DNA from: a virus
IMG/VR virus record: IMGVR_UViG_3300042375_000420
Location: 1-64,000 of that record
Strand: one strand, 5' to 3'
DNA: 64,000 bases
Shown here: piece after piece, positions 1,867-44,494 of the stretch
How the letters are laid out: every line of letters starts with the position of its first letter
How positions within the stretch are numbered: position 1 is the stretch's first letter
Notes under the pieces: model-generated
Database searches by the model: none
The model's input: only the letters and a program-made list of their open reading frames with translations
What the model was told of the DNA's origin: nothing
Program-made: the position numbers and the translations under genes

Positions 1867-1875
1867 AGAAAAAGT

Positions 1876-2586: not shown

Positions 2587-2746
2587 TTGGTTAGCCCTTT
2601 TCCTTGGAGTCATATCTGGCTCTATAATTACTATTGTTGCTTTGGCTTTAGTAAGAGGAAATTGGAGTAAAAAAGACATTGTTGATATAGACCCTGAAAT
2701 ACAGGAAGCTGAAAGACAGTGGAAAGAACAAAGCAAAGGTTATTAA
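2579..2746 (+). CDS. Small single-pass membrane protein
   Basis: 55 residues from ATG 2579, which overlaps the preceding stop; a longer reading from 2552 would run deep into the upstream gene and is less likely. Residues 1-24 are a strongly hydrophobic segment (LALFLGVISGSIITIVALAL) followed by a charged cytoplasmic-type tail ending in EQSKGY. No family recognised. Its place between replication genes suggests coupled translation rather than a shared job. Confidence 0.65.
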   Translation: MVSWLALFLGVISGSIITIVALALVRGNWSKKDIVDIDPEIQEAERQWKEQSKGY

Positions 2747-2771
2747 TTTTTAATTTTTAAATTCATACATT

Positions 2772-3161: not shown

Positions 3162-3192
3162 AAGATTGTTTAATTATTAAAAAAGACTAGAT

Positions 3193-3966: not shown

Positions 3967-3991
3967 TTAATTAAAATTTAACCTCTTTTAT

Positions 3992-5020
3992 ATGAGCAAC
4001 TATCAATATAATTCAGATAACTTAAATAGAAGAGGTTTTATTAGTAAGGAGAGCATTCTAGATTTAGTCACACAGGAGGAGGTATTTCAATTAGTGTTCA
4101 ACTTTATACCCCAAGAGTTTGATTATGTAGTGTCTCCACTGAGATATGATAGGACTCCAGGTTGTTGGTTTAGTTACCATACAAATGGAGTTCTTTATTT
4201 TATTGATTTTGCCCACACTAGAACCCATAGTGATTGCTTTAATATAGTGCAAGATTTTTTCAAATTCCCTAATTTTTACTTGACTTTAGAATATATCCAC
4301 AAAACTTTGATTCAAGGTAAAGTGGGACTGAAGCCTATTGATAATAGGGAAGAGACTAAAAAGTTAGTCAAAGAGAAAGTCAAACTCTTAATAGAAGCAA
4401 GGAACTTTGGGCCTGCAGATGTGAAGTTTTGGTCTCAATATGAGATTAGAAAAAAGCATTTGGTTGAAGATAGGGTTTTTGCTGTTCAAAAGTTATTTGC
4501 TTTGAACACTAAATCAGGGAGTCATATTATTGATTGCAAGGATATTGCATACAGTTACAATGATTTTCCTGAATCTAGGAAGAAAGTTTATTTTCCTATG
4601 AGAGAAGGCAAGAGAAGATTCTTAACAAACTGCACAAAGAATGATGTAGGTGGCATTAATTCCCTAGTGTCTTATGGTAAAGAGTTGATTATTGCTAAAT
4701 CTTATAAAGATTATAGAGTGCTGAAGAATAATGGTAAAAATGTGGTTTGGTTTCAGAATGAGGGGATGATACCCAATGACTTAATCTTAAATCTGTTGGT
4801 TAGAAATTTTGTTACTGTCATTGTATGGTTTGATAATGATCAACCTGGTATAGTAGCCTCTGAAAAAATCAAAACCCACATTAATAGCCTCATTCCAGGC
4901 AAAGCAAAGAATCTTTGGCTTCCAGAGAGAAGCTTAGAACAGGGTATTAAAGACCCATCTGATTGTATAGCTAAGGACAAATCCTTATTTCATCAATTCT
5001 TAAAAGACTTTACAGAATGA
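3992..5020 (+). CDS. DnaG-family DNA primase with TOPRIM domain
   Basis: 342 residues. Makes primers for lagging-strand synthesis with the helicase. The N-terminal half corresponds to the DnaG-type catalytic core without an obvious zinc-binding domain. TOPRIM is residues ~229-300: KELIIAKSYKDYRVL (K236-S-Y-K-D240) replaces the usual 'EGxxD', and the acidic pair is in VIVWFDNDQPG (D281, D283). The Glu-to-Lys variant is known in phage and plasmid TOPRIM primases ('TKSxKD'). The TGA overlaps the next ATG (ATGA), coupling it to the UDG-like gene. Confidence 0.85.
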   Translation: MSNYQYNSDNLNRRGFISKESILDLVTQEEVFQLVFNFIPQEFDYVVSPLRYDRTPGCWFSYHTNGVLYFIDFAHTRTHSDCFNIVQDFFKFPNFYLTLEYIHKTLIQGKVGLKPIDNREETKKLVKEKVKLLIEARNFGPADVKFWSQYEIRKKHLVEDRVFAVQKLFALNTKSGSHIIDCKDIAYSYNDFPESRKKVYFPMREGKRRFLTNCTKNDVGGINSLVSYGKELIIAKSYKDYRVLKNNGKNVVWFQNEGMIPNDLILNLLVRNFVTVIVWFDNDQPGIVASEKIKTHINSLIPGKAKNLWLPERSLEQGIKDPSDCIAKDKSLFHQFLKDFTE

Positions 5021-22700: not shown

Positions 22701-25498
22701 AAGTCTGTGACTACACTTTTTCCTTCTTGGTCTAATTTGTATTGAGTATAGTTGTTTAAATCTTGAAGAAAAGCATCTAGATTATTTCTTTGAGTTTCTA
22801 TGATATTTTCATACTCAATTTGACCTATTTTATCTATTAATTGGGTCTTATAAGCAGTAGCTTGGGCACTTGTACCCAATTGATATTTAGAGTAATTTCC
22901 TGAACCATCTTCAAGTTCATGTAATAGTCCTATATCAATAAACTCTGTATCATTATTAAGTAAATTAAACTTTTGAGTTAATAATTGTTGCTCTAATAAC
23001 CAGTCTTTATTTTTTATTGCTTGATAGATTTTACTATCTACAGCTACTTTAATAGCTTTTATAAAAGAGTTATAACTGTTTGAATATTTTTCAATTAACT
23101 TATCACTATTTTTACCAGGTTTTACAAATAAACTATAAGTCTCTCCAATAGATTTTAGAGCAGCTTTACCTTTTTCTTCTGCAATAGAGATTTGAGTCTT
23201 GATAGCTGTTTGTATAGCCATAGCCTTACTTTCTTCTATTTCATACTCTAACCTCATCAAGGCATCTAAGATATTATTCTCTCTTACTAAGTTTTCTCCT
23301 GTAGCAAATAAATAACTTTCTATCTTAGTTATATCTCTAAGTTCTTTTTTAAGTTCTTCTCTTATATCCTCTAAAGAATCTGTTTTATAGATTGATTTAA
23401 GTTTAGATTCATGTCTTTCAAGAAGTTCTATTAATACAGTTTCTCCTGCATTTTTAACAAGCATTTGAGCTTTATCTACATGAACTCTTACTCCTTCTAA
23501 CATTTTCAATACTTCTGCTGGATAAGAAGCTTTAATACCTAAAAAGGGAGATAAAGTATTTCCTATATTTTTTTCAATATCTCCTTCTTGTGTAGGGTCA
23601 GATATTTTTTTCATAAAGTCCAACAAATCTTTAGCTAAGAAATAGTTATCTATTGTTGGATTTTTTAATAATGCTGAAACAGTATTGACATCATCTCTAA
23701 AGAATCTTTCAATAAGATTAAGTTTATCTACTCCTGGTTCATTAAAATCAAAAATATCTGAAACTAAATTATCTTTAAGAGTTCTAAACTCTGCAATTTT
23801 ATTGTCAAATTTAGTGGACTTAAATTTACTCTTTTGAGAGTATAAGTTTTTAAGAGAGTTTTCTACATAAGAGAGCATAGCTTCCTTTTTTGTAAGGTAA
23901 GCATCATAATTAGGTTGAGTAATACCACTAGGAGCACTTCCATTAGTAATAGCAGCTTCTCCTTCTTCAAGTATTTGATCTTTTAACTCTTCAATTCTTG
24001 TCTCAAAATAATTTACAGCTTGTTCTACAGAAGTAAAAGTAACCTTTACAGTTCCTCCAAATTCAGTAGTAGCTAAAACAGCTCCAGCTTTTTTAACTCC
24101 TTCTAATTGTCTAACATAATCTTGAAGTTTTTCAATATTTGTATTTAAGTCTGTAATACCTTCTTGTATTTCTTCTATTTCTTTATTTTCTTCAGGAGTA
24201 AATTGCTCTTCTAAGTGTTGTTCTACAGTTTTGCCATCAATTAATTCAGGGTTATCCATTTCAATAACTTGTTCTTCCTGAGTATACAAAGCTTCATCTC
24301 CATTATAGTAATCTAAATCTCTCTCTGTTTTAGTTTCTTCAGTAAGTCCTTCATTATCCTCTTCAATAGTTTCAGGAAATAACTTTAATTGAACAGGCAT
24401 TGTACCTTGTTGCAATGCTTTACCTGCACTTACTGTATAAGTAAAACTATGTTCTCCTGTATTAGCATTTTCTAATTTAGAAGTGTATTGAAGTTTATGA
24501 TCAGTTTGTAAAGCATTATACTTTTTAATTGCTTTACCTTGATTAAAAGATACTGTGTTTGAGAATCTTTTAGTTTGGAAAGTTTTTCCTAATAAAGAAG
24601 AAATACCATTAGCACTAATAGTACCTAAGGTAGGTTTTTCTTTTACAGAAAAAAGAATATGTCCATCATCTATCCCTTTTTGATACTCTTCATTAGAAGC
24701 TAATCTTTCATTAGCATCAGTAAGAATAGTTTCAGCAGCAAAAAAAGCTTGGGCATATATTGAAGAATCTTTAGCTTTAGTAATACCTAATAGAGAAAGG
24801 ATATAATCCATAATCTCTTCATAAGCATTTTTAAATTTAGTATTTTCTAAAGCAGGTATTTCTTGAAGAGCCCTAATAAACTTAGAATTTGTGTGTATGG
24901 CAACCATAAACTCATCTATAGTGTGAGTGGCATAGGTTCCTTCTCTGGTTTCTGTATTATATTCTTCAAAAAAAGGTTTTACATAGTCATAGAGTTCTTC
25001 AAAATGTTTAGCATTAGTTGTATCATTTCTCAATTCCTTATAAGACATTGCATGAAGGATTTCATGTAGAATTGTTACTCCTCCATTTGTAAATCCCATA
25101 GAAGAATTAATAGTAATATTATGACTGCCAGGAAAATAACTACCTAAAGCTTGATTTTCATCTTCATTAGCAACTAGAGTTGAAGTAGACTTATCTAATA
25201 ACTTTGAGTATTTTTCTAAGTGTTTAGCAACTTTAAAAAGAGGGTGAGAACTCTCTGCTAAAGAACTAAGTAAATCAGAAGTTTTAACAGTCCCTTCAGG
25301 GTTAAAATAATCTGGCTGAAAAAATCCTTTTACACTATTAAACTCTTTAACTCTTAAGTCTCCAACAGTAGGAAAATTATCTAATCCATTAACTTCTTGC
25401 CACAAAGAAACCTTTGCAGCAAGAATTATAGGATTTAATTTGGCTTCAGCACTTAATTTTTTAAACTCTTTAGTGTTAGTATTTACACAATTTGCCAT
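19775..25498 (-). CDS. Giant virion protein, 1907 residues, with N-terminal zincin motif; likely ejected with RNA polymerase
   Basis: Follows the RNA polymerase polyprotein after 2 nt, as giant proteins do in crAss-like phages. Residues 145-149 are HEILH (HExxH, zinc metallopeptidase signature) in VTILHEILHAM. Residues ~400-480 are acidic; much of ~480-1000 is long helices or coiled coil. Residues ~1515-1555 are Gly/Ala-rich hydrophobic (LLGATAAVGMFSSATPFFP), able to cross a membrane. I infer a packaged protein, possibly processed by its protease, and ejected with the genome. No further enzymatic motif recognised. Alternative: structural cargo only. Confidence 0.72.
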   Translation of the reverse strand: MANCVNTNTKEFKKLSAEAKLNPIILAAKVSLWQEVNGLDNFPTVGDLRVKEFNSVKGFFQPDYFNPEGTVKTSDLLSSLAESSHPLFKVAKHLEKYSKLLDKSTSTLVANEDENQALGSYFPGSHNITINSSMGFTNGGVTILHEILHAMSYKELRNDTTNAKHFEELYDYVKPFFEEYNTETREGTYATHTIDEFMVAIHTNSKFIRALQEIPALENTKFKNAYEEIMDYILSLLGITKAKDSSIYAQAFFAAETILTDANERLASNEEYQKGIDDGHILFSVKEKPTLGTISANGISSLLGKTFQTKRFSNTVSFNQGKAIKKYNALQTDHKLQYTSKLENANTGEHSFTYTVSAGKALQQGTMPVQLKLFPETIEEDNEGLTEETKTERDLDYYNGDEALYTQEEQVIEMDNPELIDGKTVEQHLEEQFTPEENKEIEEIQEGITDLNTNIEKLQDYVRQLEGVKKAGAVLATTEFGGTVKVTFTSVEQAVNYFETRIEELKDQILEEGEAAITNGSAPSGITQPNYDAYLTKKEAMLSYVENSLKNLYSQKSKFKSTKFDNKIAEFRTLKDNLVSDIFDFNEPGVDKLNLIERFFRDDVNTVSALLKNPTIDNYFLAKDLLDFMKKISDPTQEGDIEKNIGNTLSPFLGIKASYPAEVLKMLEGVRVHVDKAQMLVKNAGETVLIELLERHESKLKSIYKTDSLEDIREELKKELRDITKIESYLFATGENLVRENNILDALMRLEYEIEESKAMAIQTAIKTQISIAEEKGKAALKSIGETYSLFVKPGKNSDKLIEKYSNSYNSFIKAIKVAVDSKIYQAIKNKDWLLEQQLLTQKFNLLNNDTEFIDIGLLHELEDGSGNYSKYQLGTSAQATAYKTQLIDKIGQIEYENIIETQRNNLDAFLQDLNNYTQYKLDQEGKSVVTDLSPESQKNITIFEARSNPLKFTENYKLNGGNMVAYSAGTQANTATAKLTYNTYIPRKADLQGNPTDYFDSQFDKIANNPDILALYTAIRKGVYQIEDNLRGSGVFVTTGDLPSFKKTITDTLLDKGWLATIKQGLPSSLPEVLKLLKAGVTLAPVRSFLGEQLSGTSQEFGDNNTIITPTEVSFDNKGDNKTDLALVVKAALEFSAVHKARAEAKDKVRLYMEESMNIKDALGRDRPNEMARQKFFYDQLLLNKKGKKEYGNISETLIAWDRKMTGKPFSNSRMFYKYFTSDQKATYREALRNWTNLKNKGFDNLTEDEETDRLSLERTMEMLGNDYFLSTIYKAIAMKLAIAKNLALNIPAQMFNKINGWSACVNRDGKYWPKGSVYACSSFLHKKPMMKYVSGDWQKESDILRLFIDRLSLINDGTSELERAEGKLRQKFNVLYPMGLMKWAEDSNQTLGILCMATGLKIKDINGNEVPLFTGSNFNGYTIKDGNLELLPEFDTPENKEMLLSMSSGSFLDWKADTKEALEELNGDYSHTGVTRIKGNVLMAPFMLYKTWLPRYIGSRWRGEQKNIKKGTVEKGFMWEAITGKTTGGSGFLLGATAAVGMFSSATPFFPLIVGVGLAGAGIAKNIARSKAAKRNLVPDTDDFVITWQKQAMFVLQTLLRTPATPINMIAGRELISGSEKYLGLDESKLNQKTSALAARDVARNLQYSLTVAALHFAVQAAFGPPDEEKEKKGEEGSEQRRRWLIQQEKLREEHPYFNFAANALERMFQETNTCLDPTILATTFGSKNTLEGSFDSIVKLFQALNRPEEEDIIKTGKNAGQTKTSKFMRASLLPATVRQLGAEGGITDPFRGWRAGFESITEDERSKKSLVKDWTRTTDFKKSTTTYKAELAIKMPIAQENILRAWRYESIDDVPVATMTLFKKQVKLEAAKIIRTENLDRDLEDKIFVPKRTKFNEAQMKRPK

Positions 25499-25500
25499 AA

Positions 25501-28500
25501 TTAATTACATTTTTTAATTTTGTCTTGTTCTTCTTGGCTTAGGTTATCCCATTCTTCTTGAGTAATACCTAGATTTTCTATAGAAGTATCAAAGGTAGTT
25601 AAATTATTTGAAATCATAGCTTCTCCTTCTTCTTCAAATAGTTTAGTTTGATTCTTATCAACAAACTCTTCAGGAACTTCTTTAATTATTCTATCTGCAA
25701 AATGAGAAATAATATCATCATTTATATAGTAAGTGTCAGAAAAATTATACCAAGCTTCTACAATTTTTGCTCCTTCTATAGGATTGTCTCTTAAAAACTC
25801 AAGTTCTGCAATAGCTATGTCTTCTCCCCATTTATCTTGAGCATACTCAAAAGCTGCAGGACCATACTCTTTCTTAAATAATTCTTCTACTTCTTCATTT
25901 GTGACTTCTTCATTTTTGAGTTTATCATCATATTTATTCCAGTCAAAACTTTCTCCATACATCCCAGCTTCTTTTAATTGACTTAATCCCATTAAAGTCT
26001 TAGTATCTACAGAAGTATCTTCATCTAATACAATAGTAGCAGGTAATTTTTGATTAATTCTTTCATTTAAAGGCACTTCAATACTCTTACCATAAGTAAT
26101 CACTACATTAGCATTAGGAAGTGAAGTTTGTGTGACTGTTTTAGTAGGTACTTTAGCTCTTTCTTCTTGAATAAATTTCATTGAAGCTAAGATTGATGCT
26201 CTAGCTACAGAATCTTCTTTTAATCCTGGGAAAATTTGATCTAACATAGTTACAAAGAAGTCTTCAATTTTATTTAAAATAGATTTACCTGATTGTAAAT
26301 AAGGTACCCCTTTAAATTCTTTTTGAAAATCTTCTGAAGTCATAGCCACAGAAACAAACTCAAATACATTAGTAAGACCATAAATTACATTAAGTTCTCT
26401 ATCTGTAAATTCTATTTTAGGGTTGCCTTTAACAGAATTATGAGCTATTTTATTCTCCAAAGCTTTCACTTCTCCTTCATATACTTTTCTTGCAGCATTA
26501 TATGCTTGGAAAAGACTTTCTACATGAGGAGGAATAAATACATCAGTTCTTGTTTTTGTACCACTATTATCAAAATACTCTGTTAAGTGACTTACAGCAA
26601 CTGAATGAAGTATTTCATGTATGATTAACTCAGAACCTTTTTCTTTAGACATTTGAGAAAACTTATCTGCATCTATGGAAATAAGTATTTTACCTTGTGA
26701 ATCAGGTCTAGAAGTAAATCCTGCTGCTCCTTTTTTCTCATACAAAGTATTAGAAAGTTGAATATTAACTAACCCTTCTTTTAATAAAGGAGTCAACCAC
26801 TTAGCAGTCTCAGCCAAGAATTTCTGATCTTCAGAAAAGTTCAAGTTTTGGATTTGCTCAAGCAATGCTTCTGGAGTAGTTAAACCATCCATAGTAATTG
26901 CTTCTAAGATTTTAGTTTCTTCTATTATTTCAGGAACTTGTTCAATAGTTCCACTAGTGTTAAAAATAGAAGTAACTTCATTTTGCTTATAAGAGTATTC
27001 TTTAATACCTGACTGACCTACAGTATCTATTCTTCTGTATTGATTCATCCCCACATTTTCATATAGATTTGAAACTTTTACACCTTCTTGTATAGTATCA
27101 TAAGTAATAAACTTAGGTGATTTACCTTGTTTAGTTTCATAAAGTAAAGCCCCTTCTTCAGTAAATTTAACATTTTTAGACCAAGCTCTTTTAGCTTTTC
27201 TAGGGTTATTTTGAAAGTACTGTCTTGTGAAAGAAGCAATATCAGTTTCTTGAATACCTAAAGCTTTGTCAAAGAAAGTTGGAGAGTTTTCTCTATTATT
27301 AAACATCTGTAACTTTCTATTAATAGGTACAAAGACTTCTTTTCCTCCTTTATTTTCTATTTGTCCCATTACTTCCATTAGCTGAACAGGGATAAACTTA
27401 CTAAATTGAGTAGCTTCTTGTACTCCTCCTTCAAGGAAAGAATATGCAACTAAGTCTTCTCCTAATTGTCTAGTAGAATATGGTTTACCATTTCTAGGAG
27501 GCAAAGGAAGATTAGAAAGAATCAACTCTGGAATAGCATTATAAAGAATCTCTTCATCTAAGTTGTCTGTAGCAGTATTATTATACTTGATTAAAGAAAG
27601 TTCTCCTTCAGCACCTGTTGTATAAGAGAATCTAGAATACAAAGCATTTTTCAATACAGCATTTACACCTCTTTTGTTAGTTACAGAACCTGCTAAATCT
27701 CTTAAATAAGTTGAAATAGAAGTATTAGTATCTGAGTCTACAAAAGTTTCTTGTCTTTTTGCTTTAGTTTCTCCTATGTAAGTATTGTTATTAGGATTAG
27801 AATTGATATATTTTATCATCTCTTCCATAATTTTATGGAATTCTTTTATATAAGTACTATCAGCCATTGTCTCTGGGTCTAAACCTTGAGACAATAAAAT
27901 TTGATTAATTACAGATTTAATACCTACATCCTCATAAGGGAAGAAACTCTTAAATAAAGTATTTCCAGTTTGTAAACCATGGATAGTTATGTGACCTTGA
28001 GGAGTATTAGGAGTTACATAGTAACCACCAATTTTATACATGTTTTCAGTTATAACTGCTGGATTTTTTTCAAATTCTCCTAAAAGTTTACTTATATTTT
28101 TAATAGGACTATCAGGAAAATTAGCTAAGGCTCTATATGAAACACTAGATTCAACTAAAGATTTACCTAATTCATTAGTATTTAACACTTTCTGAGCTTT
28201 AGAAACATTTCTAGCATGTTTATCTAAATCTAAAAAGGTAATTAAAGCATCAACTTGTACCATACTATTAGAAGCTCCTTGACTAGCAATACCATCATAC
28301 ATAGTTTGGCCTGTCAAAGATTTACCTGGTTTGTAAACAAGACCAGTAGAAACATATCTAAAAGTAGTTATGTTTTTAGGGTCAATAGCAGACATACTCT
28401 TATCCTTACCAAATGTAATAATAGGGTTATTATTGCTATCTACACTTAGTCTTTCAACAGTTTCTTTTTTCAACTTACTTACATCAAAGAAATCACTAGC

Positions 28501-31500
28501 TAGGATACCTTTACTATTCTTGATTTGCTTGTTGTATTCTTTAATACTTGGTTGAGAAAGTAGTAAGTAAGGAAGAGCCATTTTTTGTTTCTCTTTCATT
28601 CCTGGTACTTTCACTAAGTCAGTATCAAAACCAAGTAAAGTCAATAATGAATCCACATTAATAGTTTGATCATTAACTCCTACTCTACCTAAGATTTGCT
28701 CTTTCTCATTATCTGTTGCAGTATTTTCTTTTTCAGCAAATATCTCAGAAACTGTTCTTTTTAGTCCTTTCCAATTTGCTTCAGAAATATGAGAAGGTTT
28801 CAAGGATTCTAATAAACCTAATCTACCTTTAGAAGTTATTCCTCCAATTGTAATCTCAGTATCTAAAGATACCTCAACACCTTGTTGTTGAATAAGTCCT
28901 GCCATAGTAGTATAATTTGCATATACTCCAATAGCTGTTTTACCAATAGAACCTAAGTCCATTTTCATTTTTTGATAGCTGTAAGACAAGACAGTATTAT
29001 AACTTTGATTTGTATAATACTCTTGTTCAGCATCTTCCATTGTCATACCTAAGTCTACAAACTTGGCAACTTCTTTTGCCTTATTACCATCTTCTACAGC
29101 TTTCTCAAACATTTTAGCTTGATCTTGAGCAAAAGACATAGATAATACTTTGTTGATTTTATTTTGTACTTGATTATCAGGGTTATTAAATACAGCCAAG
29201 TGAGATTTAATAAAACTATTTTCAGCCATTTGACTAGCTATTTTAGTATCCAAAGCTTTTTGAATACTTCTCATAGAGTGATTAATATCTTTGATACTTG
29301 ATTTAGAATCTTTTACCATTACCCAAAGACCTTCAACCTCTGATTGAAGTTCATTCATGTAAGGGATGTTACTAGCTACTTTAAGTTTTCCTTGAAGAGC
29401 ATCTAACTCTGCTTCAATTTCAGCAATAGTTTCAAAGTCTCTACCTCTGTAGAATTGAAGTTCTTTTATAGAGTCTTTTGTTCTTTGTACATACTCATCA
29501 TTTACCTCTTTAATTTTACCTTCAGAATCCATATAATGATTTAATTGATAAGTGTTTTCCTTATCAACGTCAAAATCTAAACCTTTTTGTTTAGTAAAGT
29601 TTTTAGGTACTATCATAAGTTCTCCCATTTCAGGAGGTAATATACCTGCTATTTCAATACTTGAACCAGATACATGGGAAGAAGTAGGAGTTCTAAAAGA
29701 AAACATATTCATAAGATTTTCATCTATCATATCTTCTTTCAATCCAAGAGTACCATTATCTCTTCTAATCAAGTATTTAGCTTTAGAAACATCTCCTGTT
29801 TCATTATCATATCCTTCAAATAGATTAACTAATTCTCCTGTACTAGGATTCTTAAAGTAAGATCTAACAAATACTTGTGCTTTTTTAAACATAGGAGTTC
29901 CATCCACATCTTCAACAGAAGTTCCACCAAGTTCTTTACCATTAAAGTTATTAAGATAAATGATTCTTGATTTAGTTCTTTCTTCAATTCCTTCAAGACT
30001 GTTTAATCCTTCTTTCATTTGAATTCCTGATTCAGACCCTGCTACATAAGCATTTCCTGAGATCTTGTGTTGCATTAACCTATTGGTTACAATAGAGTTC
30101 AACAAAGATTCATATCTGTTTTTATCAGAAGATAACCATAATGGAGTTTTAAATTCATAGAATACTCCTGAAGCCATAGCTAGTTCATCAATTTTTAATC
30201 CTGCAATAGATTTTAGACTGTATCCTCTTTTAATAGCTTCATTTTCAAGTAGTTTACCTAGACTGTAAATAAATTCTTTTTTATTTAAAATCTCTCCTTG
30301 AGGAGATAAACCTAGTTCTTCAAATAATTCTGTTCTTTTATGTCTAGCAAGTTCAGCAAAAGAGTCAGTATAATACTGATGTAATTCTCTTCCTGTCATA
30401 GGTTTACCATCTATTTCAAACCCATTTAATTCAGTAATACCATCACCAAACAAAAGTTTAAAGAACTGAGTACCCATAGATATTTTATCTGCCTTAGTCT
30501 TTTCAGATTTAACAGGAACATCTTGTTGGATTCTAAAGTTATTTCTATCTAAGATTAAGACCTTAGCATTAATATCTCCTTCAGCATACTCTTTAATACC
30601 TTCTAAAGAATACTTATCAAAAGGATTGATAGTTGTTCTTGTGGCTCCCACTTTATTAGCAGATTGGAAAGAAGCTCTAGTGAATCTACCAGTAGATTTT
30701 TCTAACTCTTCCATTTTAATTCTTAGTCCTTCTAACTTGGTGCCTTTTGTAAATTCTGGCAATAATGGGTATGAAGAAGACTTAATATAAACATATCTGT
30801 TTACATCTGCTGTAGTATCTGCATAAGAACCTGTATGAACAGGTTTAATAGGTTGCATGATTACTTTTAGATCTTCTCTAGCCAAAGCTTGTCCTGCCTC
30901 TAATTTGGCCTCAATAGCCTTCATTTTAGCAGTTGTCAATCTTCCTTGTTTATTTAGAATATTAATATGCTCTCTAACTGTAGTATACTCTTGAGCATCA
31001 GTAGATTCAATATTAAAATAATCTGCTATAACAGGAAAAGCTTTTTGAAGATTGTGTCTTGTTAAAGACATGTCTTTTTTAGCTTTATCCACAGCAGGTA
31101 CATCCATAACTTCTCCAATTTCATATCTGTGCACTAGGTCTGCATTCTTACTATAATCATTAAGTAAAGTCTTAATTGCTGGAGTTAAAGCTTCTTTACC
31201 ATAGTGTAGAGAAATCAAATACTCTGCATTTGGAGCAATATCTGCACTATCTGTTAAGAAGATCTGATTGTATTTTCTGAATTTTGGATCTGCAGAACCA
31301 GCTATTTTGTTCCCTGGTGCAGCTAAAGCAGCTAATCTTTTACCAAGATTCACTCCAATACCCTTATTAAGATTTATCCAATCTTCATTAGTGTACTCAT
31401 TTAAAGGCACTTTATTTCCATTCTCATCTTGTTTGAAAAGTTTATTTTGAGAATACATTGCCATATCTCCTGCAAAAACTTTAAACATTTCTGAGTTATG

Positions 31501-34500
31501 TAACATACCATTAATTACAACATCATAAATAGCCTTGTTGTAATCTGCAGCTGGATTTTTCTTAACTTCTGTAAAGTAAGAAACAGAAAACATCTTAGAC
31601 CCAACTTTAGGAGTAAAGTGTTCTTTCCATAATTCTTTTTTAGCTCTTGTTTCAGTATCTACAACCTTAGCAATAACTTCTTCAAACTGAAGTTTATACT
31701 TTGCTTTTACTATTTCTGGAGTTAGATTAGGAAGCGTAGCCAATTCATCTAAAATACTTAATCCTTTAGAATCTTGTAAAGCATTTAAAGCAGGGATTAA
31801 ATGAAATATTTCAGCTCCTCTATCATAATCTTTGATATTAGTTTGTTTAACAGAAGCATGGTATTTTATAATTCTTTTTACTTCAGGCATAACAAGTTGC
31901 TCAATCAAGACATCTTTTAATCTATTTGACATAGTGATCTCTCCTTGCTCATTTTCTTGTAACTCATCTCCTCTAAGAAGATCTAAACCTATAGTATCTA
32001 TGTAGTAAGCCTTAGATTTATCAGACATAGTAGGAGAAAGCATTCTCATTACTCTAGCATGAATACCACTTATCTTTTCAGAAGTAGTAAGTTGTTTAAT
32101 CTTTCTATCTCCAAATTGACCATTAACATTAAAGTCATAATCTACTTCACCTAAATCTGTAATACTTCTTCTATCAGCAGAATCTTCTCCTCTTTCTTTA
32201 AGAGTCATAATAGCAGCATGAGACACTTTAAAAAGGTCTTTAAAAGAAGTGCCCTCTCTCTGTAAAAAATCTAAGATAAGAGAGTTTTCAGAAAAAGATA
32301 AAGCTTGTAAGTCTTGAACTAAAGTATTATCTTCTTGACCTAAAGAGTCTAGCAAGTCATTAACTTTATCAGACATAAATGTTTCTGGAGTTTGAGTAAA
32401 GATTGTTTTATCTCCATCTCTATATGTTAAAGAAACCAAGTTAGTATTATAAATAGCTTCTATCTTAGCCAAAGACTTGAACATACCTGATAATTCTTTA
32501 AAGACATTTTTATCTTCATTGTGAACATAACTTGTAGGATTAGCTTTTGCTTCTCTTAAGAAGTTTACTATTGGTAAAAATATACCTTGACTCTTATCAA
32601 ATAAAAGATTGTTGTAACTGTATCCTTTATCTTTAATTCCTTCAGTAACTATTTTATCCCAAGCAGCATCAGTAAAACCTATACCCAATTTATTTAACCA
32701 TGCTCTATGATTATCAGGAGTATTGTTTTCTCCTTTTAACCATTCTTCATAAGTATCAATTAAGTTTCCAGCAGTTGTAGTATTAATAGTTAAATTTCTA
32801 TTATACACTGAAGAAGTTCTATTATTGTTTTTCCACTTGTTTTCAATAACTCTTGTAGCTTCATTTGCATTAGTCTCATAAGACTTCAACTCAGATAACT
32901 CTCCTAAATCTTGATACATAGTAAAGTTTGAAGTCATACTATGTTTTACAAAAGTATATAAGAATTGATTCTTAGTTTGTTCATCAGCAGTCTTTAACTT
33001 AACCAATATGTCTTTTGTAAAAGGTACTTCAGAAGTCTCTAGTCTTTTTATTAAAGCATCATAATTAGAAGGCAAATCAGAACCTAAAGAAAGAACTTTA
33101 GTCAATTCATTAAAGATTTCATTAAAAGTATAGTACTTAGGTAAACCTAAATAACCTGTTTGAATAGTACCTTTAGAATCTCTTTTTTGCACTCCATGCA
33201 TAAAGTTTCTAAGAATAGTACCAACACTTAATTTACTATTTTCTTCAACAGAATCTTTATTATAACTTTTTTCATTTAAAGCATCTTCTACTTCTTCTCC
33301 ATCTTCTATCTCTGTCTTAGATTGTTTTTCAAAATCTAAAGCAGCTCTTTTAAATAGAACTTTATAATCTGTTTCTACAGAGTCAATATTCTTAAGGGCA
33401 TCAGTGTAAGCATTAACAAAAGCTCTCTTTTCAGCAGTATCTTCTGTCTGACTTAAAACAGTATTAAGATTAGCTTGGATAGCTTTTCTTACTTCTGCCA
33501 AAGTAGAAAGTAATTTATCTTTAGTTTCTTGTTCTACTGCTCTTTCTTTCTTATTAAATACTCTACCTTCTTCATCTATATATTGTCTACTCTCTGCAAT
33601 AGCATGAGTTACATATTGTCTAATATCTTGTTCTTGAGGAGTAGTAAGTCCTGCAATAGAAATTAGTAAAGATTGTAAAGGAGTTGTATCATTAGCAATC
33701 ATAGCTTCACCATCTTCAAACTCTTGATAAGAATCTATATCAATACCTAAAGTAGCTGCAAAATCATATTGCTCTGTTGCATTAAATGCAGGTGTGTTAC
33801 CTAATAGAGTATCATTATTTACAACCTCAATAACTTTTTCTGCTTCATTTTGAGGAGTAACTCCTTCTACAGGAGAATATTGTATATTGATAATAGGTTG
33901 AACAGCTGTTATGTAATTAGGTTTTTCTGCTGTGCCAATATTAAAAGACAAAACATTAGTCATTAAATTACTCTTTAAATACTGAGAGTACCCCATATTT
34001 AGTGGAGTTACTTGTCCATTAATTATGTGTATAGCAGATTTAAAATCTCCTTTTTTAAGTAAAGATTCTTTTGTATGTTGAACAAAACCTACTAGATTAT
34101 TCTTTTTAGCTGCTTCATCAAGTAATTCAGCATCCATACCTAGATTATCTTTAATAAGATTTTTTTGGTAATATGCAACTTGATTTTTAGCAGGTTTATT
34201 AGACAACTGTAAAAAACTTTCTACAAAAGTTAATATGTCAGTAGGGTCAAAAATATCTAAACCAGTATGGTTAAGTACTTGTTCTCTAATATTTTGAGCC
34301 TGATCATCAGTCATTGAAGTCCAAGGAGTTACTGTAGTCAAGTAAGAAGTAAATCTATTCTTAACTGCATTAGCAGCTAGGGCCCATTTAACTGTCTCTA
34401 ATTGCTCTTCTGTTACTTTTCTTTGGACATGAAAAGCTCTATAAGTATTTACTAAAGTCCCATCAGGTCTTTGCATCTTACCTTCTCTTCTTATCTCCCA

Positions 34501-37500
34501 AGTTCTACTATCATACTTTAATCTTCCATCTGCAGTTCTTTCAGAAAAGTCTGCTTCATTAAGTATAACTCCATCTTTGAATTCTTGTTTATTACCAATA
34601 GAGATTTTTTCTCCTACTTGAACAGCAATAATACTTTGAGGATTGTTACTTTCTAGACTAACTAAAGAATTGTCACCCACTGTTTGGAATACACTAGTAG
34701 GAGTTCTTTTTATAGTTACTTCTCTTAGACCTCCTTTTAGTATAGTTTGTCTTAAGTTTTGAGTTCCTTCTTTTCCTTTTTGAATTTCACTTGCCCACTC
34801 TCCCAAAGGTCTGTGAGGATTAATATCTAATCCAGTAGGGTCAGCCACATTGTAACCATTATACCAATCAGAATCATGAACTGTAGCAATTCTTTTTCCT
34901 TGGTAAGTATAATAAATTGGTACTTTGGCATCAATTTCTTCTTGAGTTCTAGGTTTTTCTGCTAACCACTTATCAAAAGTTGTAAGTATTACTTTTCCTT
35001 CAGGAGTTCTTCCATTAGAAACTGTAATATCTTTCCATTCATTTTCTGTAGCTATTTCAATACCCACAGTATCTCCAGTTTGTAATCCTTCAGGATCCAA
35101 TAAAGGAGTTATATTTACACCATTACTCTTATTAGTATTAAGAATAGGGATGCTTATTTTTCTGTATGTGCCATCTTCATTTTCTTCTGTGTATTCTAAA
35201 GAAGAATACCCCATCTTAGGTAACATGTTAGCAGTTCTTTGAGTATCAATAACTGTCTCTACAACTTGTTCAGAGATTTCTCTATTAGATTCATCTTGTC
35301 CTACTATTCTACTAGATACCAAAGCTGCTGCTTGTACATTGTCATTTTCCTCTCTTACTTCTATAGCAGGATGAGTAGTTGGCATTGTAGGGACTACAGG
35401 AGCCACAGGAGTTACAATATTTCCATCTTGGAAATCCATAGTAGCTAAGACATCAAAGATGGCTGCAGGACTATACATTACACTAAAGGTTTCTGTAAAA
35501 TCTTCAAGAGGATACAGAGTATCTCCATATTTTGCATTTAATGCAATCCAAGCAGAAGACATGGCTCCAAAGTTTTTTTGAACATCATCAAGCATTCCTT
35601 TTGACTTATAATGGTCAAAGATTTCTCTAAAAGTAATTCTGTTTCCAGTCTTATCTTCATAAAGTTGAGTCATACCTTCTAAAGTATCTTGAATTTGTTT
35701 TAAAAACTCTTCAGGATAAACTTTACCAAGCATAGGTTCTCCATCAAAAAATGTTGTATCTGCTGGAACTGAGATTTGTGTACTAGGAGTAGACTTATTC
35801 AATAAAGGAGTGATTAATTTATCATATTTATCATAAGTTTCAGCTAATTTTGCATCTTTTATATCTATTAGTTTTTGCCAAGCAACATCATCTCCAAATG
35901 TTATTTTTTGAAAATTATCTTGATATTCTTTTTCTATTTTAGCATTCTCAACTTGCTCTTCTGCTCTTAAGTCAGCAACTTGTTGCTCATTAGTTTTAGA
36001 AGTTGTTTGAGTAGTAGATGCAGATACAGATAAATCTATAGGTTGAGATATAACATCTTGTGTTCCTACTGTAATAGTAGGGTCAACAGTAAAACCTTGA
36101 TGAGCTAAACCAAATGCAGCATCTAAATCTGGATTTGAGTTTATAGCACTTGTAGGCAATTCAGTATCATCTACATAACCACTAACTTGTACATCATCAT
36201 CTTCAGGCATAGTAACTAGTTCTGAAGATAAAGAAGCATCCTCATTAACAGGAATTTTATTATCTTCAATTTTTTGACTTTGACTAATTAATAAATCTTT
36301 GATAGTAGCATTTCTTTCAACTTTAGCTCTTTCAATTTTATTATCCTTAAGTTCTTTTAAGTCTTCTGCAGAAATCATAGTACCATAAGTATCTTCAATG
36401 TGTTGTATAATAGCCTTAGCTTTTTTAACAGCATTTAATCCACTTGGTTGTTCTTTTTCTTCAACATTACTTATTCCAGGTAATACTAATTCTCCTTTTT
36501 CAATGTCTTGTTCAACTAACTCATACTCATCTTTTAAAGACTGTTTAGCTTTAAGTCTATCTTGTCTATCAGGAGCAAGTTCATCATTAAGAATTTTTTT
36601 GTTTTCAGCTACATCTAATTCTGCAGCTCTTCTCATTTTAATATTAGCCACAAGATTTTGAACAGCCATATTATTTTCTTTCTTTGGGTCAAGTAATTCA
36701 TCCAAAGTTTCTTCATAACTAGCTTTTTCTTCTTCAGAAGCAAATTCTTTAGTTAATAAACTACTAGGAGTAAAATCAAAAGATTTACCTGTTCTTTTTT
36801 TATAAGCTTCAATTTCTTCTCTAGCTTGTTCTTCTAAAATAATAGCTTGTCCTTCTAACTTTCTAATATTATCTTGATGCAATCCTGCATATACAGTAGC
36901 ATTTAGAATCTCAGCAAAGTTTTCTTTGTCAGAGTGTTCTTGGTGTGTCTTATGAATAGCATCTACTTGATTTGCAACTTGTAAAGCATTTTGTTTAAAG
37001 GTATCAGGAATATCTTTTCTGTTCAATAAGTTATCCATAGATTCTTTATAAGAACCCATCTTACCTAACCTAGCAGCTTGTTGAGCCATATTGATAAACA
37101 TTCTTTGCTCTAGTTGATCTGCAGCTGCATGTTTACCTACTTCTCTTAAGTTATTACTAACAATTCTATAGTCTACAGGACTACCTAACTTTTGACCTGA
37201 AGCCAAAGCAAGTGCCTTTTTTTCATCTTCAGAAATATCTATATTTTCTAAATCTGCTAATAGTTTTGAGTAATTAGTTTTATCTTTTGAATAAGCTCTA
37301 GCTCTACTTGCTGCTCCAATACTTTGAAAACCAACTCCCATTACAGCAGTTTGAGCTACTACATCTCTATAAAAACTTAGTTTACCTAGTTCTTTTACAT
37401 TTTCTTTATACTGAGCACCTGTTTGATTTAAAGCTGGCATTGCCTGAACAAAGATTTCTTCAAGAGCTTCTTCAGGAATACCTTGAATTAACCCTTCTCC

Positions 37501-39441
37501 AGATTCTTTTCCAATTTTTTCAAAACTTGCTCTACCTAAAGTAAGATTATTTACAGCAGTTGTTAATTTTTTAAAGGGAGCATTAGCTTTAGTAATTAAA
37601 TTTCCAGTAGCATCTAATAGTCCTCCAGCTTTTGGTATTAACTTTACCCCTGCTCTAAGACCTTTACCTGCAGCTTGAACTCCTCTTCCTACATAACCTT
37701 CTGAGAAGGCTTCTTTCATGTATTCTCCTGTAGCATATAGTAAAGAACTAGCTTCACTCTTAGGTATAAAAGAATCCCATTCAGCTTGAAGGGCATTTCT
37801 TTTACTTTCAAGGTCACTTTTCTTTTCAGAGTCTTTTTCTAATTCAATTAATTTATCCAAAGATTTTAATTGGTCTTTGTAGTAAGGACTTTTCATTTCA
37901 TAAAGTTCATCCTTAACTACATATCTTGTCTTACCATCTTTTTCAACTACACTTTCTACTCCACCTATTTGATCTGAAGTATAAGCTTTATAGAACATAG
38001 GAGAAATAGGTGCTTGAACTAAAAGACCTGTTCCTGCAGCTAAACTTCTTTCTGCTATTTCTTTACTAGCAGTACCTAAAGAAGAAAGAGTTCCTTTTTT
38101 AATACTTTGTTTTAATAGGCCTCTTAATCCTATTTTCATTTCTTCTTCAAGACCTTTTTCTAATCCAGCTCTAACACCTTTTTTAACTCCACCTTTGATT
38201 AAAGCAGTAACTCCTTGTTTGGCAACAGCACCTGCACCTCTAGTTAACATCATTTGAGCCATAAACCCAACAGAACCTCCTACACCAGCACCTAGATTAT
38301 ATCCAAAATTATTTTCATGTAATTTTAATCCATTTACATCATTTTCTAATTTATAAGCTTCAGCTACAGCATCTTCAGCTTCAGTCATAGTCTCTGGTTT
38401 TTGACCATTCTTCTTAGCTAAATAGATTCTATTAAGTTTATCAAATACTTCTTTAGCTCTAAAATCATTGACCATAGGTCTTAAACCAAAAGTTCCTACA
38501 TCTTGACTTGTAGTAGAGATACCTGCAAAAAAATCTGTATTACCTTTTCTGTAATCAGAGATTTTTTCATTTAAGTCTTGGTGTTTACTGGCCACAGTTC
38601 TCCAATAAGCTTCTTCAGCAGTTTGTGTATAATTATCTTCACTACTGTTAGCTTTAGGTCCTACACTACCATCAGGATAAAACATAGGCTGAGAATCATC
38701 CTTTAGTTTTTTCTGTTTAAGTTCTTCAGCTTTAGCCAAAGCTGTTTGATGCATTAGTCTACCTCTTTCTTCTAAAGGAGCTAAAGCAGGTTCAATTTCT
38801 TTTCTTTTGTAATTTTGGAGTTCATTATATTTCTTTTCTTCAGCAGGAGTCATTCCCTTAAAGATAAGATTATCAAGTCCTTTATTTTTAAGCATCTTGT
38901 CTTCCCAAAGAGTATCATCAGTAAGACTTTGCATAAATTGGAAAGTAAAATCTTTAGTTCTTTCCCACAAAGTTTTACTTTCTAACTTATCTAATTCACT
39001 TTGAGTATCAGCAAATTTTATAACTTTTTCTTGAGCAAGTTTTTCATTGCCAGTTTCTTTTGCAATATTGTCTTTTAACTCTTTGATAACAGGATTAGCT
39101 TCAATAGCAAGAAGTTTTTCAGCTTTCTTTTTTGCAATCATTGCCTCATACTTGGCCTGATTCATTTGTCCTTGTTCTCTTTGAGATGTATATGCACTAG
39201 CAGTAGCTATATTACTAGAGGACAAAGTACCTGTACCACTTCCAAAAAGATTTTCAAGTTCATCATCATCTACACCTTGCATAGTGACATCCCCTAACTG
39301 AGCATTAGGAGTAAATTTTTCTCTTGCTTCTGCTATAGTTTTACCAATACCTGTATTTGCAGCTTGGTGTATTCCTTCTACACTAAAAGGGTCTATAGTA
39401 TTTTCTTTTTTTCTAATAGGTGATTTAGGATTTAAGCCCAT
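25501..39441 (-). CDS. Virion RNA polymerase polyprotein, 4646 residues
   Basis: In crAss-like phages a packaged giant protein (phi14:2 gp66) is an RNA polymerase with two double-psi beta-barrels and a DxDxD catalytic loop. Here the motif is DFDVD at residues 3289-3293 (DNA 29563-29577), in KGLDFDVDKEN after a Met/Gly-rich strand. A Gly-rich hydrophobic stretch (~380-410) lies near the N-terminus, then coiled coil. A second HExxH zincin motif, HEILH, is at 4275-4279 (26605-26619). The protein is about twice the length of gp66, so neighbouring giant proteins seem to be fused into one chain. Expected to be ejected into the host and to transcribe early genes. Zincin and repeated GEAMI motifs hint at proteolytic processing. 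Confidence 0.8.
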   Translation of the reverse strand: MGLNPKSPIRKKENTIDPFSVEGIHQAANTGIGKTIAEAREKFTPNAQLGDVTMQGVDDDELENLFGSGTGTLSSSNIATASAYTSQREQGQMNQAKYEAMIAKKKAEKLLAIEANPVIKELKDNIAKETGNEKLAQEKVIKFADTQSELDKLESKTLWERTKDFTFQFMQSLTDDTLWEDKMLKNKGLDNLIFKGMTPAEEKKYNELQNYKRKEIEPALAPLEERGRLMHQTALAKAEELKQKKLKDDSQPMFYPDGSVGPKANSSEDNYTQTAEEAYWRTVASKHQDLNEKISDYRKGNTDFFAGISTTSQDVGTFGLRPMVNDFRAKEVFDKLNRIYLAKKNGQKPETMTEAEDAVAEAYKLENDVNGLKLHENNFGYNLGAGVGGSVGFMAQMMLTRGAGAVAKQGVTALIKGGVKKGVRAGLEKGLEEEMKIGLRGLLKQSIKKGTLSSLGTASKEIAERSLAAGTGLLVQAPISPMFYKAYTSDQIGGVESVVEKDGKTRYVVKDELYEMKSPYYKDQLKSLDKLIELEKDSEKKSDLESKRNALQAEWDSFIPKSEASSLLYATGEYMKEAFSEGYVGRGVQAAGKGLRAGVKLIPKAGGLLDATGNLITKANAPFKKLTTAVNNLTLGRASFEKIGKESGEGLIQGIPEEALEEIFVQAMPALNQTGAQYKENVKELGKLSFYRDVVAQTAVMGVGFQSIGAASRARAYSKDKTNYSKLLADLENIDISEDEKKALALASGQKLGSPVDYRIVSNNLREVGKHAAADQLEQRMFINMAQQAARLGKMGSYKESMDNLLNRKDIPDTFKQNALQVANQVDAIHKTHQEHSDKENFAEILNATVYAGLHQDNIRKLEGQAIILEEQAREEIEAYKKRTGKSFDFTPSSLLTKEFASEEEKASYEETLDELLDPKKENNMAVQNLVANIKMRRAAELDVAENKKILNDELAPDRQDRLKAKQSLKDEYELVEQDIEKGELVLPGISNVEEKEQPSGLNAVKKAKAIIQHIEDTYGTMISAEDLKELKDNKIERAKVERNATIKDLLISQSQKIEDNKIPVNEDASLSSELVTMPEDDDVQVSGYVDDTELPTSAINSNPDLDAAFGLAHQGFTVDPTITVGTQDVISQPIDLSVSASTTQTTSKTNEQQVADLRAEEQVENAKIEKEYQDNFQKITFGDDVAWQKLIDIKDAKLAETYDKYDKLITPLLNKSTPSTQISVPADTTFFDGEPMLGKVYPEEFLKQIQDTLEGMTQLYEDKTGNRITFREIFDHYKSKGMLDDVQKNFGAMSSAWIALNAKYGDTLYPLEDFTETFSVMYSPAAIFDVLATMDFQDGNIVTPVAPVVPTMPTTHPAIEVREENDNVQAAALVSSRIVGQDESNREISEQVVETVIDTQRTANMLPKMGYSSLEYTEENEDGTYRKISIPILNTNKSNGVNITPLLDPEGLQTGDTVGIEIATENEWKDITVSNGRTPEGKVILTTFDKWLAEKPRTQEEIDAKVPIYYTYQGKRIATVHDSDWYNGYNVADPTGLDINPHRPLGEWASEIQKGKEGTQNLRQTILKGGLREVTIKRTPTSVFQTVGDNSLVSLESNNPQSIIAVQVGEKISIGNKQEFKDGVILNEADFSERTADGRLKYDSRTWEIRREGKMQRPDGTLVNTYRAFHVQRKVTEEQLETVKWALAANAVKNRFTSYLTTVTPWTSMTDDQAQNIREQVLNHTGLDIFDPTDILTFVESFLQLSNKPAKNQVAYYQKNLIKDNLGMDAELLDEAAKKNNLVGFVQHTKESLLKKGDFKSAIHIINGQVTPLNMGYSQYLKSNLMTNVLSFNIGTAEKPNYITAVQPIINIQYSPVEGVTPQNEAEKVIEVVNNDTLLGNTPAFNATEQYDFAATLGIDIDSYQEFEDGEAMIANDTTPLQSLLISIAGLTTPQEQDIRQYVTHAIAESRQYIDEEGRVFNKKERAVEQETKDKLLSTLAEVRKAIQANLNTVLSQTEDTAEKRAFVNAYTDALKNIDSVETDYKVLFKRAALDFEKQSKTEIEDGEEVEDALNEKSYNKDSVEENSKLSVGTILRNFMHGVQKRDSKGTIQTGYLGLPKYYTFNEIFNELTKVLSLGSDLPSNYDALIKRLETSEVPFTKDILVKLKTADEQTKNQFLYTFVKHSMTSNFTMYQDLGELSELKSYETNANEATRVIENKWKNNNRTSSVYNRNLTINTTTAGNLIDTYEEWLKGENNTPDNHRAWLNKLGIGFTDAAWDKIVTEGIKDKGYSYNNLLFDKSQGIFLPIVNFLREAKANPTSYVHNEDKNVFKELSGMFKSLAKIEAIYNTNLVSLTYRDGDKTIFTQTPETFMSDKVNDLLDSLGQEDNTLVQDLQALSFSENSLILDFLQREGTSFKDLFKVSHAAIMTLKERGEDSADRRSITDLGEVDYDFNVNGQFGDRKIKQLTTSEKISGIHARVMRMLSPTMSDKSKAYYIDTIGLDLLRGDELQENEQGEITMSNRLKDVLIEQLVMPEVKRIIKYHASVKQTNIKDYDRGAEIFHLIPALNALQDSKGLSILDELATLPNLTPEIVKAKYKLQFEEVIAKVVDTETRAKKELWKEHFTPKVGSKMFSVSYFTEVKKNPAADYNKAIYDVVINGMLHNSEMFKVFAGDMAMYSQNKLFKQDENGNKVPLNEYTNEDWINLNKGIGVNLGKRLAALAAPGNKIAGSADPKFRKYNQIFLTDSADIAPNAEYLISLHYGKEALTPAIKTLLNDYSKNADLVHRYEIGEVMDVPAVDKAKKDMSLTRHNLQKAFPVIADYFNIESTDAQEYTTVREHINILNKQGRLTTAKMKAIEAKLEAGQALAREDLKVIMQPIKPVHTGSYADTTADVNRYVYIKSSSYPLLPEFTKGTKLEGLRIKMEELEKSTGRFTRASFQSANKVGATRTTINPFDKYSLEGIKEYAEGDINAKVLILDRNNFRIQQDVPVKSEKTKADKISMGTQFFKLLFGDGITELNGFEIDGKPMTGRELHQYYTDSFAELARHKRTELFEELGLSPQGEILNKKEFIYSLGKLLENEAIKRGYSLKSIAGLKIDELAMASGVFYEFKTPLWLSSDKNRYESLLNSIVTNRLMQHKISGNAYVAGSESGIQMKEGLNSLEGIEERTKSRIIYLNNFNGKELGGTSVEDVDGTPMFKKAQVFVRSYFKNPSTGELVNLFEGYDNETGDVSKAKYLIRRDNGTLGLKEDMIDENLMNMFSFRTPTSSHVSGSSIEIAGILPPEMGELMIVPKNFTKQKGLDFDVDKENTYQLNHYMDSEGKIKEVNDEYVQRTKDSIKELQFYRGRDFETIAEIEAELDALQGKLKVASNIPYMNELQSEVEGLWVMVKDSKSSIKDINHSMRSIQKALDTKIASQMAENSFIKSHLAVFNNPDNQVQNKINKVLSMSFAQDQAKMFEKAVEDGNKAKEVAKFVDLGMTMEDAEQEYYTNQSYNTVLSYSYQKMKMDLGSIGKTAIGVYANYTTMAGLIQQQGVEVSLDTEITIGGITSKGRLGLLESLKPSHISEANWKGLKRTVSEIFAEKENTATDNEKEQILGRVGVNDQTINVDSLLTLLGFDTDLVKVPGMKEKQKMALPYLLLSQPSIKEYNKQIKNSKGILASDFFDVSKLKKETVERLSVDSNNNPIITFGKDKSMSAIDPKNITTFRYVSTGLVYKPGKSLTGQTMYDGIASQGASNSMVQVDALITFLDLDKHARNVSKAQKVLNTNELGKSLVESSVSYRALANFPDSPIKNISKLLGEFEKNPAVITENMYKIGGYYVTPNTPQGHITIHGLQTGNTLFKSFFPYEDVGIKSVINQILLSQGLDPETMADSTYIKEFHKIMEEMIKYINSNPNNNTYIGETKAKRQETFVDSDTNTSISTYLRDLAGSVTNKRGVNAVLKNALYSRFSYTTGAEGELSLIKYNNTATDNLDEEILYNAIPELILSNLPLPPRNGKPYSTRQLGEDLVAYSFLEGGVQEATQFSKFIPVQLMEVMGQIENKGGKEVFVPINRKLQMFNNRENSPTFFDKALGIQETDIASFTRQYFQNNPRKAKRAWSKNVKFTEEGALLYETKQGKSPKFITYDTIQEGVKVSNLYENVGMNQYRRIDTVGQSGIKEYSYKQNEVTSIFNTSGTIEQVPEIIEETKILEAITMDGLTTPEALLEQIQNLNFSEDQKFLAETAKWLTPLLKEGLVNIQLSNTLYEKKGAAGFTSRPDSQGKILISIDADKFSQMSKEKGSELIIHEILHSVAVSHLTEYFDNSGTKTRTDVFIPPHVESLFQAYNAARKVYEGEVKALENKIAHNSVKGNPKIEFTDRELNVIYGLTNVFEFVSVAMTSEDFQKEFKGVPYLQSGKSILNKIEDFFVTMLDQIFPGLKEDSVARASILASMKFIQEERAKVPTKTVTQTSLPNANVVITYGKSIEVPLNERINQKLPATIVLDEDTSVDTKTLMGLSQLKEAGMYGESFDWNKYDDKLKNEEVTNEEVEELFKKEYGPAAFEYAQDKWGEDIAIAELEFLRDNPIEGAKIVEAWYNFSDTYYINDDIISHFADRIIKEVPEEFVDKNQTKLFEEEGEAMISNNLTTFDTSIENLGITQEEWDNLSQEEQDKIKKCN

Positions 39442-44428: not shown

Positions 44429-44494
44429 TTAAAGATTAATCTTTATCTTTCTGATTCTGCTCTTTGCAAAGCTGAGAAGTTAAAGATTAATCTT
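44429..44494. repeat. Two copies of the palindrome TTAAAGATTAATCTT, 51 bp apart
   Basis: Identical 15-mers at 44429-44443 and 44480-44494; the core AAGATTAATCTT is a perfect palindrome. The first copy is in the gap between the 1949- and 903-residue genes (it overlaps the stop region), the second inside the 3' end of the 1949-residue gene. A related TTAAAGATTA lies before the RNA polymerase gene (~39453-39462). Possible regulator site or mRNA processing signal. Confidence 0.5.

Follow-up and report, generated by a model that had tools for sequence, protein, structure and literature searches.

The giant proteins that make up the gp67-gp66-gp65 cargo block of crAss-like phages carry a cysteine at each end that faces a neighbouring block protein, and this pair of cysteines is present where the block is split into separate genes and lost where two parts are fused. 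The rule has apparently gone unreported so far, as no earlier description was found in the literature searched, the scope of which comprised work other than Drobysheva 2021 (phi14:2 gp66). Judging from these sequence patterns, it is probable that the cargo behaves as a continuous chain, in which docking motifs and a Cys–Cys link, most likely a disulfide, hold the pieces together at splits and gene fusion replaces the link.

Organisation of the giant gene and its neighbourhood

The window, by which we mean the whole 64,000-nucleotide stretch of viral DNA analysed, belongs to an IMG/VR record of 64380 bases; among annotated phages, those of Flavobacterium psychrophilum come nearest (Fpv3, FpV4 and the FPSV group). 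The initial annotation described a single 13.9-kb gene for a 4646-residue protein at 25501-39441, and this is confirmed: the 4646-codon open reading frame is uninterrupted and runs on the minus strand (39441 to 25501), which had been left unstated. The features of the region are as follows.

19775..25498, minus strand: gp65-like protein that follows in the block, 1907 aa; HEILH also present here, at residue 145 (profile–profile match to the gp65 family, probability 99.9, E=4e-32)
25376..25498, minus strand: N-terminal junction head of the 1907-aa protein, MANCVNTNTKEFKKLSAEAKLNPIILAAKVSLWQEV, with Cys4 at 25487-25489
25501..39441, minus strand: giant gene, 4646 aa, comprising a gp67-like part, a gp66-like RNA polymerase, a metallopeptidase-like domain and a C-terminal tail
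25501..25587, minus strand: C-terminal junction tail, ...GITQEEWDNLSQEEQDKIKKCN, with Cys4645, its sole Cys, at 25507-25509
26182..26934, minus strand: gluzincin/SprT-like domain, residues ~4170-4420 (alignment, weak profile matches)
26992..33924, minus strand: gp66-like two-barrel RNA polymerase, residues ~1840-4150 (phmmer to 6vr4, alignments, fold match)
29563..29577, minus strand: DFDVD, residues 3289-3293, metal-binding motif of the beta-prime-like barrel (alignment)
30412..30894, minus strand: putative beta-like double-psi barrel region, residues ~2850-3010 (barrel assigned through the gp66 alignment)
33922..39441, minus strand: homolog of phi14:2 gp67, crAss001 gp47 and p-crAss gp45, residues 1-1840 (BLASTP, profile–profile)
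39487..41700, minus strand: cargo candidate of 737 aa located upstream of the block, Cys-free and without a junction Cys (control)
41703..44414, minus strand: 903-aa cargo candidate, Cys-free
44443..50292, minus strand: 1949-aa muzzle/stabilisation-like protein with 19 Cys, homolog of Fpv3 gp29

The gene order (1949, 903, 737, 4646 and 1907 aa) is that of Fpv3 gp29-gp33 (gp29, 1961 aa; gp30; gp31; gp32, 4287 aa; gp33, 1596 aa), with the giant genes lying beside muzzle and cargo genes. PHROG 16227 (profile length 4401) matches residues 95-4429 of the giant protein with 2780 bits. Fpv3 gp32 shares the architecture, gene order and length class of the window protein, as well as a single C-terminal Cys (position -2) followed by a gp65-like ORF starting MAC; the two are 58% identical in the core and 42% identical across residues 1269-4427, with 28% identity in the N-terminal part. 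The window protein differs in being ~360 residues longer, and Fpv3 gp33 lacks the second HExxH found in the window. About 80 related loci with the core of the giant gene were retrieved (individual loci are given below as L numbers). Pfam gave no match in the full-length 4646-aa protein, a DUF6782 match in the 1907-aa ORF fell below the cut-off, Rfam had no match in the window or in locus L035, and ARAGORN found no tRNA.

Fusion of the gp67 and gp66 parts

Residues 1-1840 of the window clade match the gp67 family with a probability of 98.6 (E=6e-16, hhalign), and BLASTP comparison of L022, L025, L037 and L057, members of the clade, with L071, L073, L086 and p-crAss gp45 gives further support to the gp67 part. 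We infer the gp67/gp66 boundary of the window protein to lie at residue ~1840 +/- about 50. By homology, the window gene is a fusion of gp67 and gp66 that leaves gp65 separate. Proteins encoded separately in other crAss-like phages had been suggested to be fused here, and this proves correct, residues 1-1840 corresponding to gp67 and ~1840-4150 to gp66; the length, put at roughly double that of phi14:2 gp66 (2180 aa), measures 2.1x.

Comparison of gene splitting across relatives shows that other arrangements exist. Phi14:2 encodes three homologous proteins in the same order (gp67, 1797 aa; gp66, 2180 aa, with DFDID; gp65, 1421 aa), but as three separate genes, with Cys only at neighbour-facing ends, whereas p-crAssphage (gp45, 1957 aa; gp44, 4070 aa) fuses gp66 and gp65 instead. 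The p-crAssphage gp45|gp44 and crAss002 gp32|gp33 blocks resemble the window in consisting of two pieces with a junction Cys pair, but represent this other fusion, gp67 being the separate piece. The corresponding sizes are 2341, 2412 and 1349 aa for crAss001 gp47, gp50 and gp49, and 2018 and 4098 aa in R. jaberico. Giant crAss RNAP genes of up to ~6000 aa were previously known (PMC10136315) and giant fused ones have been described (PMC10136315, PMC7886860, PMC10770324); length and fusion alone are not new, and the window protein joins the known giant crAss RNAPs. In P23-45, too, a two-barrel vRNAP is fused to a large ejected protein, there a siphovirus tape measure (PMC10770324).

Gly-rich hydrophobic segments of the giant protein (residues ~376-410 and ~695-715) align with similar gp67 segments and may interact with membranes. 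Single assemblies occur in which the giant gene is broken by frameshifts, as in L023 compared with the near-identical L024, and in L035 near 7050 and 15440.

The RNA polymerase core

The best PDB match of the giant protein is 6vr4, phi14:2 gp66 (E=7e-12, phmmer). Residues 2740-3440 align with gp66 across the invariant lysines and DxDxD, with DFDVD opposite gp66 DFDID and located in the translation at residues 3289-3293, where the initial annotation had placed it; invariant columns in the beta-like barrel region include Lys2866 of QPIK and Lys2887. An AlphaFold2 model of residues 2740-3440, of moderate confidence (mean pLDDT 69.5), matches 6vr4_A (E=3e-13, probability 1.00, 664 columns), followed by cellular RNAP large subunits. 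Alignment and model together support two double-psi barrels on one polypeptide, one of them around DFDVD, and the proposed RNA polymerase identity is borne out by the gp66 alignment, the phmmer match and the fold match together. Membership of the N4 gp50 family (T7-like single-subunit fold) is ruled out, as the match is to two-barrel 6vr4 and not to N4 gp50. Annotations list two relatives, phi14:2 gp66 and Fpv3 gp32, as virion proteins.

Several related polymerases depart from this layout. In L055 (3302-10966, 11450-16657) the polymerase is split between its double-psi barrels into two ORFs separated by a 483-nt gap, with QPMK on the first ORF and DFDVD on the next. The core of L063 (9071-12757) spans 1229 residues against the usual ~680, owing to a ~550-residue insertion that is possibly an intein. 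ProJPt-Bp1 PJPA_041, from a termite-gut phage (L177, 709-11154), is likely an RNA polymerase without DFDxD, the nearest motif being GDDNDGDKLF, and keeps the junction cysteines despite this absence.

The metallopeptidase-like domain contains HEILH at residues 4275-4279 (26605-26619, minus strand) with a conserved downstream Glu in the C-terminal alignment, and both motifs, HExxH and the Glu, are kept in most of the clade. Its profile matches are all weak (phage ejection or internal virion proteins 8vb2 and 9sfn, and projannalysin), as are the Pfam PhageMetallopep/SprT-like match and the zincin-like matches of a fold search. The 1907-aa neighbour has a second HExxH (residue 145, 25052-25066, minus strand), and the domain appears mobile among relatives, occurring in phi14:2 gp65 and near the C-terminus of the p-crAss and crAss001 gp67-like proteins. 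A NADAR domain (Pfam PF08719, E=1.8e-13) matched in one member of the C-terminal alignment is probably the insertion that L037 (13337-14968) shows ahead of its HExxH domain.

Cysteines mark the junctions between block proteins

Across the block, gp67 ends with Cys, gp66 starts M-x-C and ends with Cys, and gp65 starts M-x-C and has no C-terminal Cys; the first block protein has no N-terminal Cys. The total Cys content of phi14:2 gp67, gp66 and gp65 is 1, 2 and 1, respectively, every one of them at a neighbour-facing end, and crAss001 gp47 has one in 2341 residues, at -3. In the window, the giant protein has one Cys in total (Cys4645, position -2) and the 1907-aa protein starts MANC, its Cys4 being invariant in the head alignment and its four further Cys non-conserved. 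The alignment of the C-terminal region likewise shows an invariant Cys at the extreme end of tails that are otherwise unconserved.

The rule was quantified on junctions from two scans of viral contigs, represented by 125 members of single-linkage clusters at 60% identity (101 junctions after and 24 before the RNAP ORF), with ORFs called mechanically from the first ATG. A Cys lies within the last 10 residues upstream at 121/125 junctions and within the first 10 downstream at 122/125; exactly one Cys is found there at 120 of the upstream and 121 of the downstream ends. With 7-residue windows, the 101 junctions after the RNAP ORF have Cys upstream in 95, downstream in 96 and on both sides in 91, against ~1.0 expected per side by random placement of each protein's own Cys; the counts for the 24 junctions before it are 22, 23 and 21 (expected ~0.15-0.2). 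In the baseline set, ORFs of 200-900 aa from the same loci, 10.5% have a Cys in the C-terminal 7 residues and 6.5% in the N-terminal 7 at a Cys content of 1.12%, compared with 0.079% Cys in block protein bodies. None of the 23 separate gp67-like proteins carries a junction Cys at its outer N-terminus, and Cys is absent from the control cargo-to-block junctions in 48/48 true controls. Internal ends differ from outer ends with P about 1e-46 (Fisher, which ignores relatedness).

Seven further annotated phages, belonging to other genera and families, obey the rule: DAC17, crAss002, frurule, cr110, cr109 (with reassigned stops), cr1 and ProJPt-Bp1. In crAss002 gp33 (L170 8848) and cr110 gp40 (L172 8761) the head corresponds to an internal MSC at residues 33 and 15, respectively, suggesting that translation probably begins later than annotated. 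The downstream Cys mostly lies at positions 3-5, behind A or S. Junctions that do not fit are L126 (upstream side), L156, L091, L112 and L119. Some gut clades have 10-40 Cys per block protein and still keep the terminal ones.

Cysteines follow the split or fused state

The N-terminal Cys is absent in 39/39 RNAP ORFs with detectable gp67 homology and the C-terminal Cys in 6/6 with gp65 homology; most RNAP ORFs with neither a terminal Cys nor detected homology are fused by length and missed by the profile, and L105 and L127 fit the rule when a later start is chosen (MAKDTC, MKIYC). Fully fused complete proteins (5642, 5639 and 5542 aa) contain zero Cys. Conversely, the extra splits of L028, L055 and L163 have Cys on both sides of the added junction, with seemingly last proteins that end in Cys preceding further block proteins starting MGC, MANKNC and MSSC; the inter-barrel split of L055 reads ...KKCE/MACE. 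On a tree of the core (FastTree), the N-terminal Cys state changes at least 13 times and the C-terminal Cys state 10 times, and 5-8 tree-independent pairs follow the split state with 0 in the opposite direction, which is a fairer test than the Fisher tests because the latter ignore relatedness. L035 was rejected as a natural gp67/gp66 split, its sequence being a frameshifted assembly, and was kept as a negative control: its frameshift-broken ORFs lack Cys pairs, while its real junction (...KIINCI / MKNKC) obeys the rule.

In crAss001 and relatives gp47 lies on the opposite strand; in crAss001 its distance to the start of gp50 is 11 kb, and the protein still ends ...RCNS. Those related loci that include the opposite-strand gp47-like ORF have the C-terminal Cys too, and the same applies to DAC17 and frurule. 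Neither adjacency in the DNA nor translational coupling can account for the rule, because the C-terminal Cys persists with the genes on opposite strands.

Matching motifs in tails and heads

Heads of the gp66 and gp65 types share the 32 residues that follow the head Cys, and for 24/48 gp66 heads the best match to a gp65 head exceeds the 99th percentile of random internal segments. The window tail ..ITQEEWDNLSQEEQDKIKKC resembles the crAss001 gp47 tail ..WSEEKWNEVSQEEREQALRC, and the window head C-VNTNTKEFKKL...AAKVSLWQE resembles the crAss001 gp50 head C-ITTNSTIEEL...KGLVELWQD. Tails with the motif E-x-W/F-x-x-L-S-x-x-E go together with heads of the type ...AAKVSLWQE at junctions of either kind (gp67|gp66, P=0.003; gp66|gp65, P=4e-5; joint Fisher, P=6e-7, post hoc), which is only suggestive because the regular expressions were picked after data inspection. 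Beyond this single clear, window-type motif pair, general covariation of tails and heads is weak (P=0.018). The inter-barrel junction of L055 resembles the gp67|gp66 junction of L134.

Proposed mechanism and alternative explanations

The cysteines suggest pairing of consecutive proteins because both are present at splits, both are gone at fusions and none is found at the outer ends, and a disulfide is favoured because there is one Cys per side. We lean towards a covalent head-to-tail chain with one disulfide per junction, threaded as a single string and released by cytoplasmic reduction; the physical pairing, disulfide chemistry, packaging, ordered threading, timing and release are all elements that we infer. 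Each piece would be joined by its C-terminal tail to the N-terminal head of its successor, tail and head having matching docking motifs and one Cys apiece; the bond would most likely be a disulfide, formed in the virion and opened later by the reducing cytoplasm of the host. In fused genes a peptide bond would take the place of the link, with loss of both cysteines, such that gene fusion and docking-plus-disulfide may be interchangeable ways of keeping the chain connected. For the window, the predicted link connects Cys4645, in the 4646-aa protein, with Cys4 in the 1907-aa one. The corresponding predicted pairs are crAss001 gp47 Cys2339-gp50 Cys5 and gp50 Cys2404-gp49 Cys5, phi14:2 gp67 Cys1797-gp66 Cys3 and gp66 Cys2179-gp65 Cys3, and Fpv3 gp32 Cys4286-gp33 Cys3. 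Internal Cys would have been purged, as in the N4 vRNAP, allowing threading through tail and envelope without mis-crosslinking. The N4 vRNAP is Cys-free, a property that has been related to its route through tail and periplasm (PMC2784036, PMC3915230, PMC3715699), and N4 gp50, gp51 and gp52 and T7 gp15 and gp16 contain no Cys. Both N4 gp50 and the window protein are giant polymerases, with 0 Cys in 3500 residues and 1 in 4646 (terminal only), respectively, but the ejected N4 enzyme is an unrelated T7-like polymerase and gp50, gp51 and gp52 have no junction Cys. For crAss001, disulfides have been reported in the tail of the virion, and the structure led to the proposal of a partial unfolding during ejection (PMC10172136).

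In modular polyketide synthases, a short C-terminal tail and an N-terminal head act as docking domains that join consecutive giant proteins, fusion being equivalent. These domains are non-covalent and share no homology with the crAss junctions, so that the comparison is one of function only.

Counting against a disulfide, the cytoplasm in which assembly takes place is reducing and often anaerobic, and oxidation would have to be late or catalysed. The four non-conserved Cys of the 1907-aa protein, the 10-40 Cys per protein of some gut clades, the few junctions that do not fit and the weak general covariation of tails and heads also weigh against the proposed chain. Alternatively, the terminal Cys could pair, or the ends be tethered, by other means: a metal or Fe-S site that they share, a thiol adduct of another kind, or purely non-covalent docking in which Cys belongs to the interface. 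We regard this as rather unlikely yet worth keeping in mind: the pairing evidence leaves the chemistry unspecified and the reducing cytoplasm is in its favour, but a metal site with four Cys agrees less well than a disulfide with the presence of exactly one Cys per side at nearly all junctions. Native chemical ligation is rejected, since it needs Cys at position 1. It is also very improbable that proteolysis, perhaps by the HEILH domain of the protein itself, separates the gp67-like and gp66-like parts of the 4646-aa chain before or during injection, as in a true polyprotein. The domain is related to one in solved ejection proteins and the parts are encoded separately in relatives; however, it is also found where the proteins are already separate (phi14:2 gp65), HExxH is lost in some fused relatives (EEVVH in L066) and the fused junction near residue 1840 has no Cys. 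In the split forms a Cys is retained at each end, which looks like a requirement for joining. Proteolytic processing, as implied by the term polyprotein in the initial annotation, is not supported; because selection keeps Cys on both sides of split junctions, the connected chain appears to be the functional state.

Another reading takes the terminal Cys as by-products, whether ancestral residues or a DNA-level start/stop context left after purging of other Cys, and would be in keeping with heads and tails that are homologous within one protein family and with the purging known from N4 vRNAPs (PMC2784036, PMC3915230, PMC3715699). This is very improbable, as the Cys arise at new splits, vanish at fusions and persist across opposite strands, their codons are both TGT and TGC, and neither the true controls nor the frameshift-broken ORFs of L035 have them, while Cys-rich clades retain them. 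Binding of each protein to a different virion component rather than to its neighbour, such as the portal or the C1 cargo, which lies at the portal in crAss001 (PMC10172136), is harder still to credit: the outer ends of the chain are without Cys, fusion removes both partners together, and tail and head motifs match one another.

Implications

A continuous, disulfide-linked chain would bear on how several hundred kilodaltons of polymerase pass through tail constrictions of <50 angstroms in crAss-like phages, which are among the most abundant human gut viruses. The rule names which Cys should pair with which in cultured phages and is testable on existing virion preparations. It would account for the free fusing and splitting of these giant genes. 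As a sequence signature, it may reveal in what order cargo proteins are arranged and how they are linked, and it also corrects likely mis-annotated starts.
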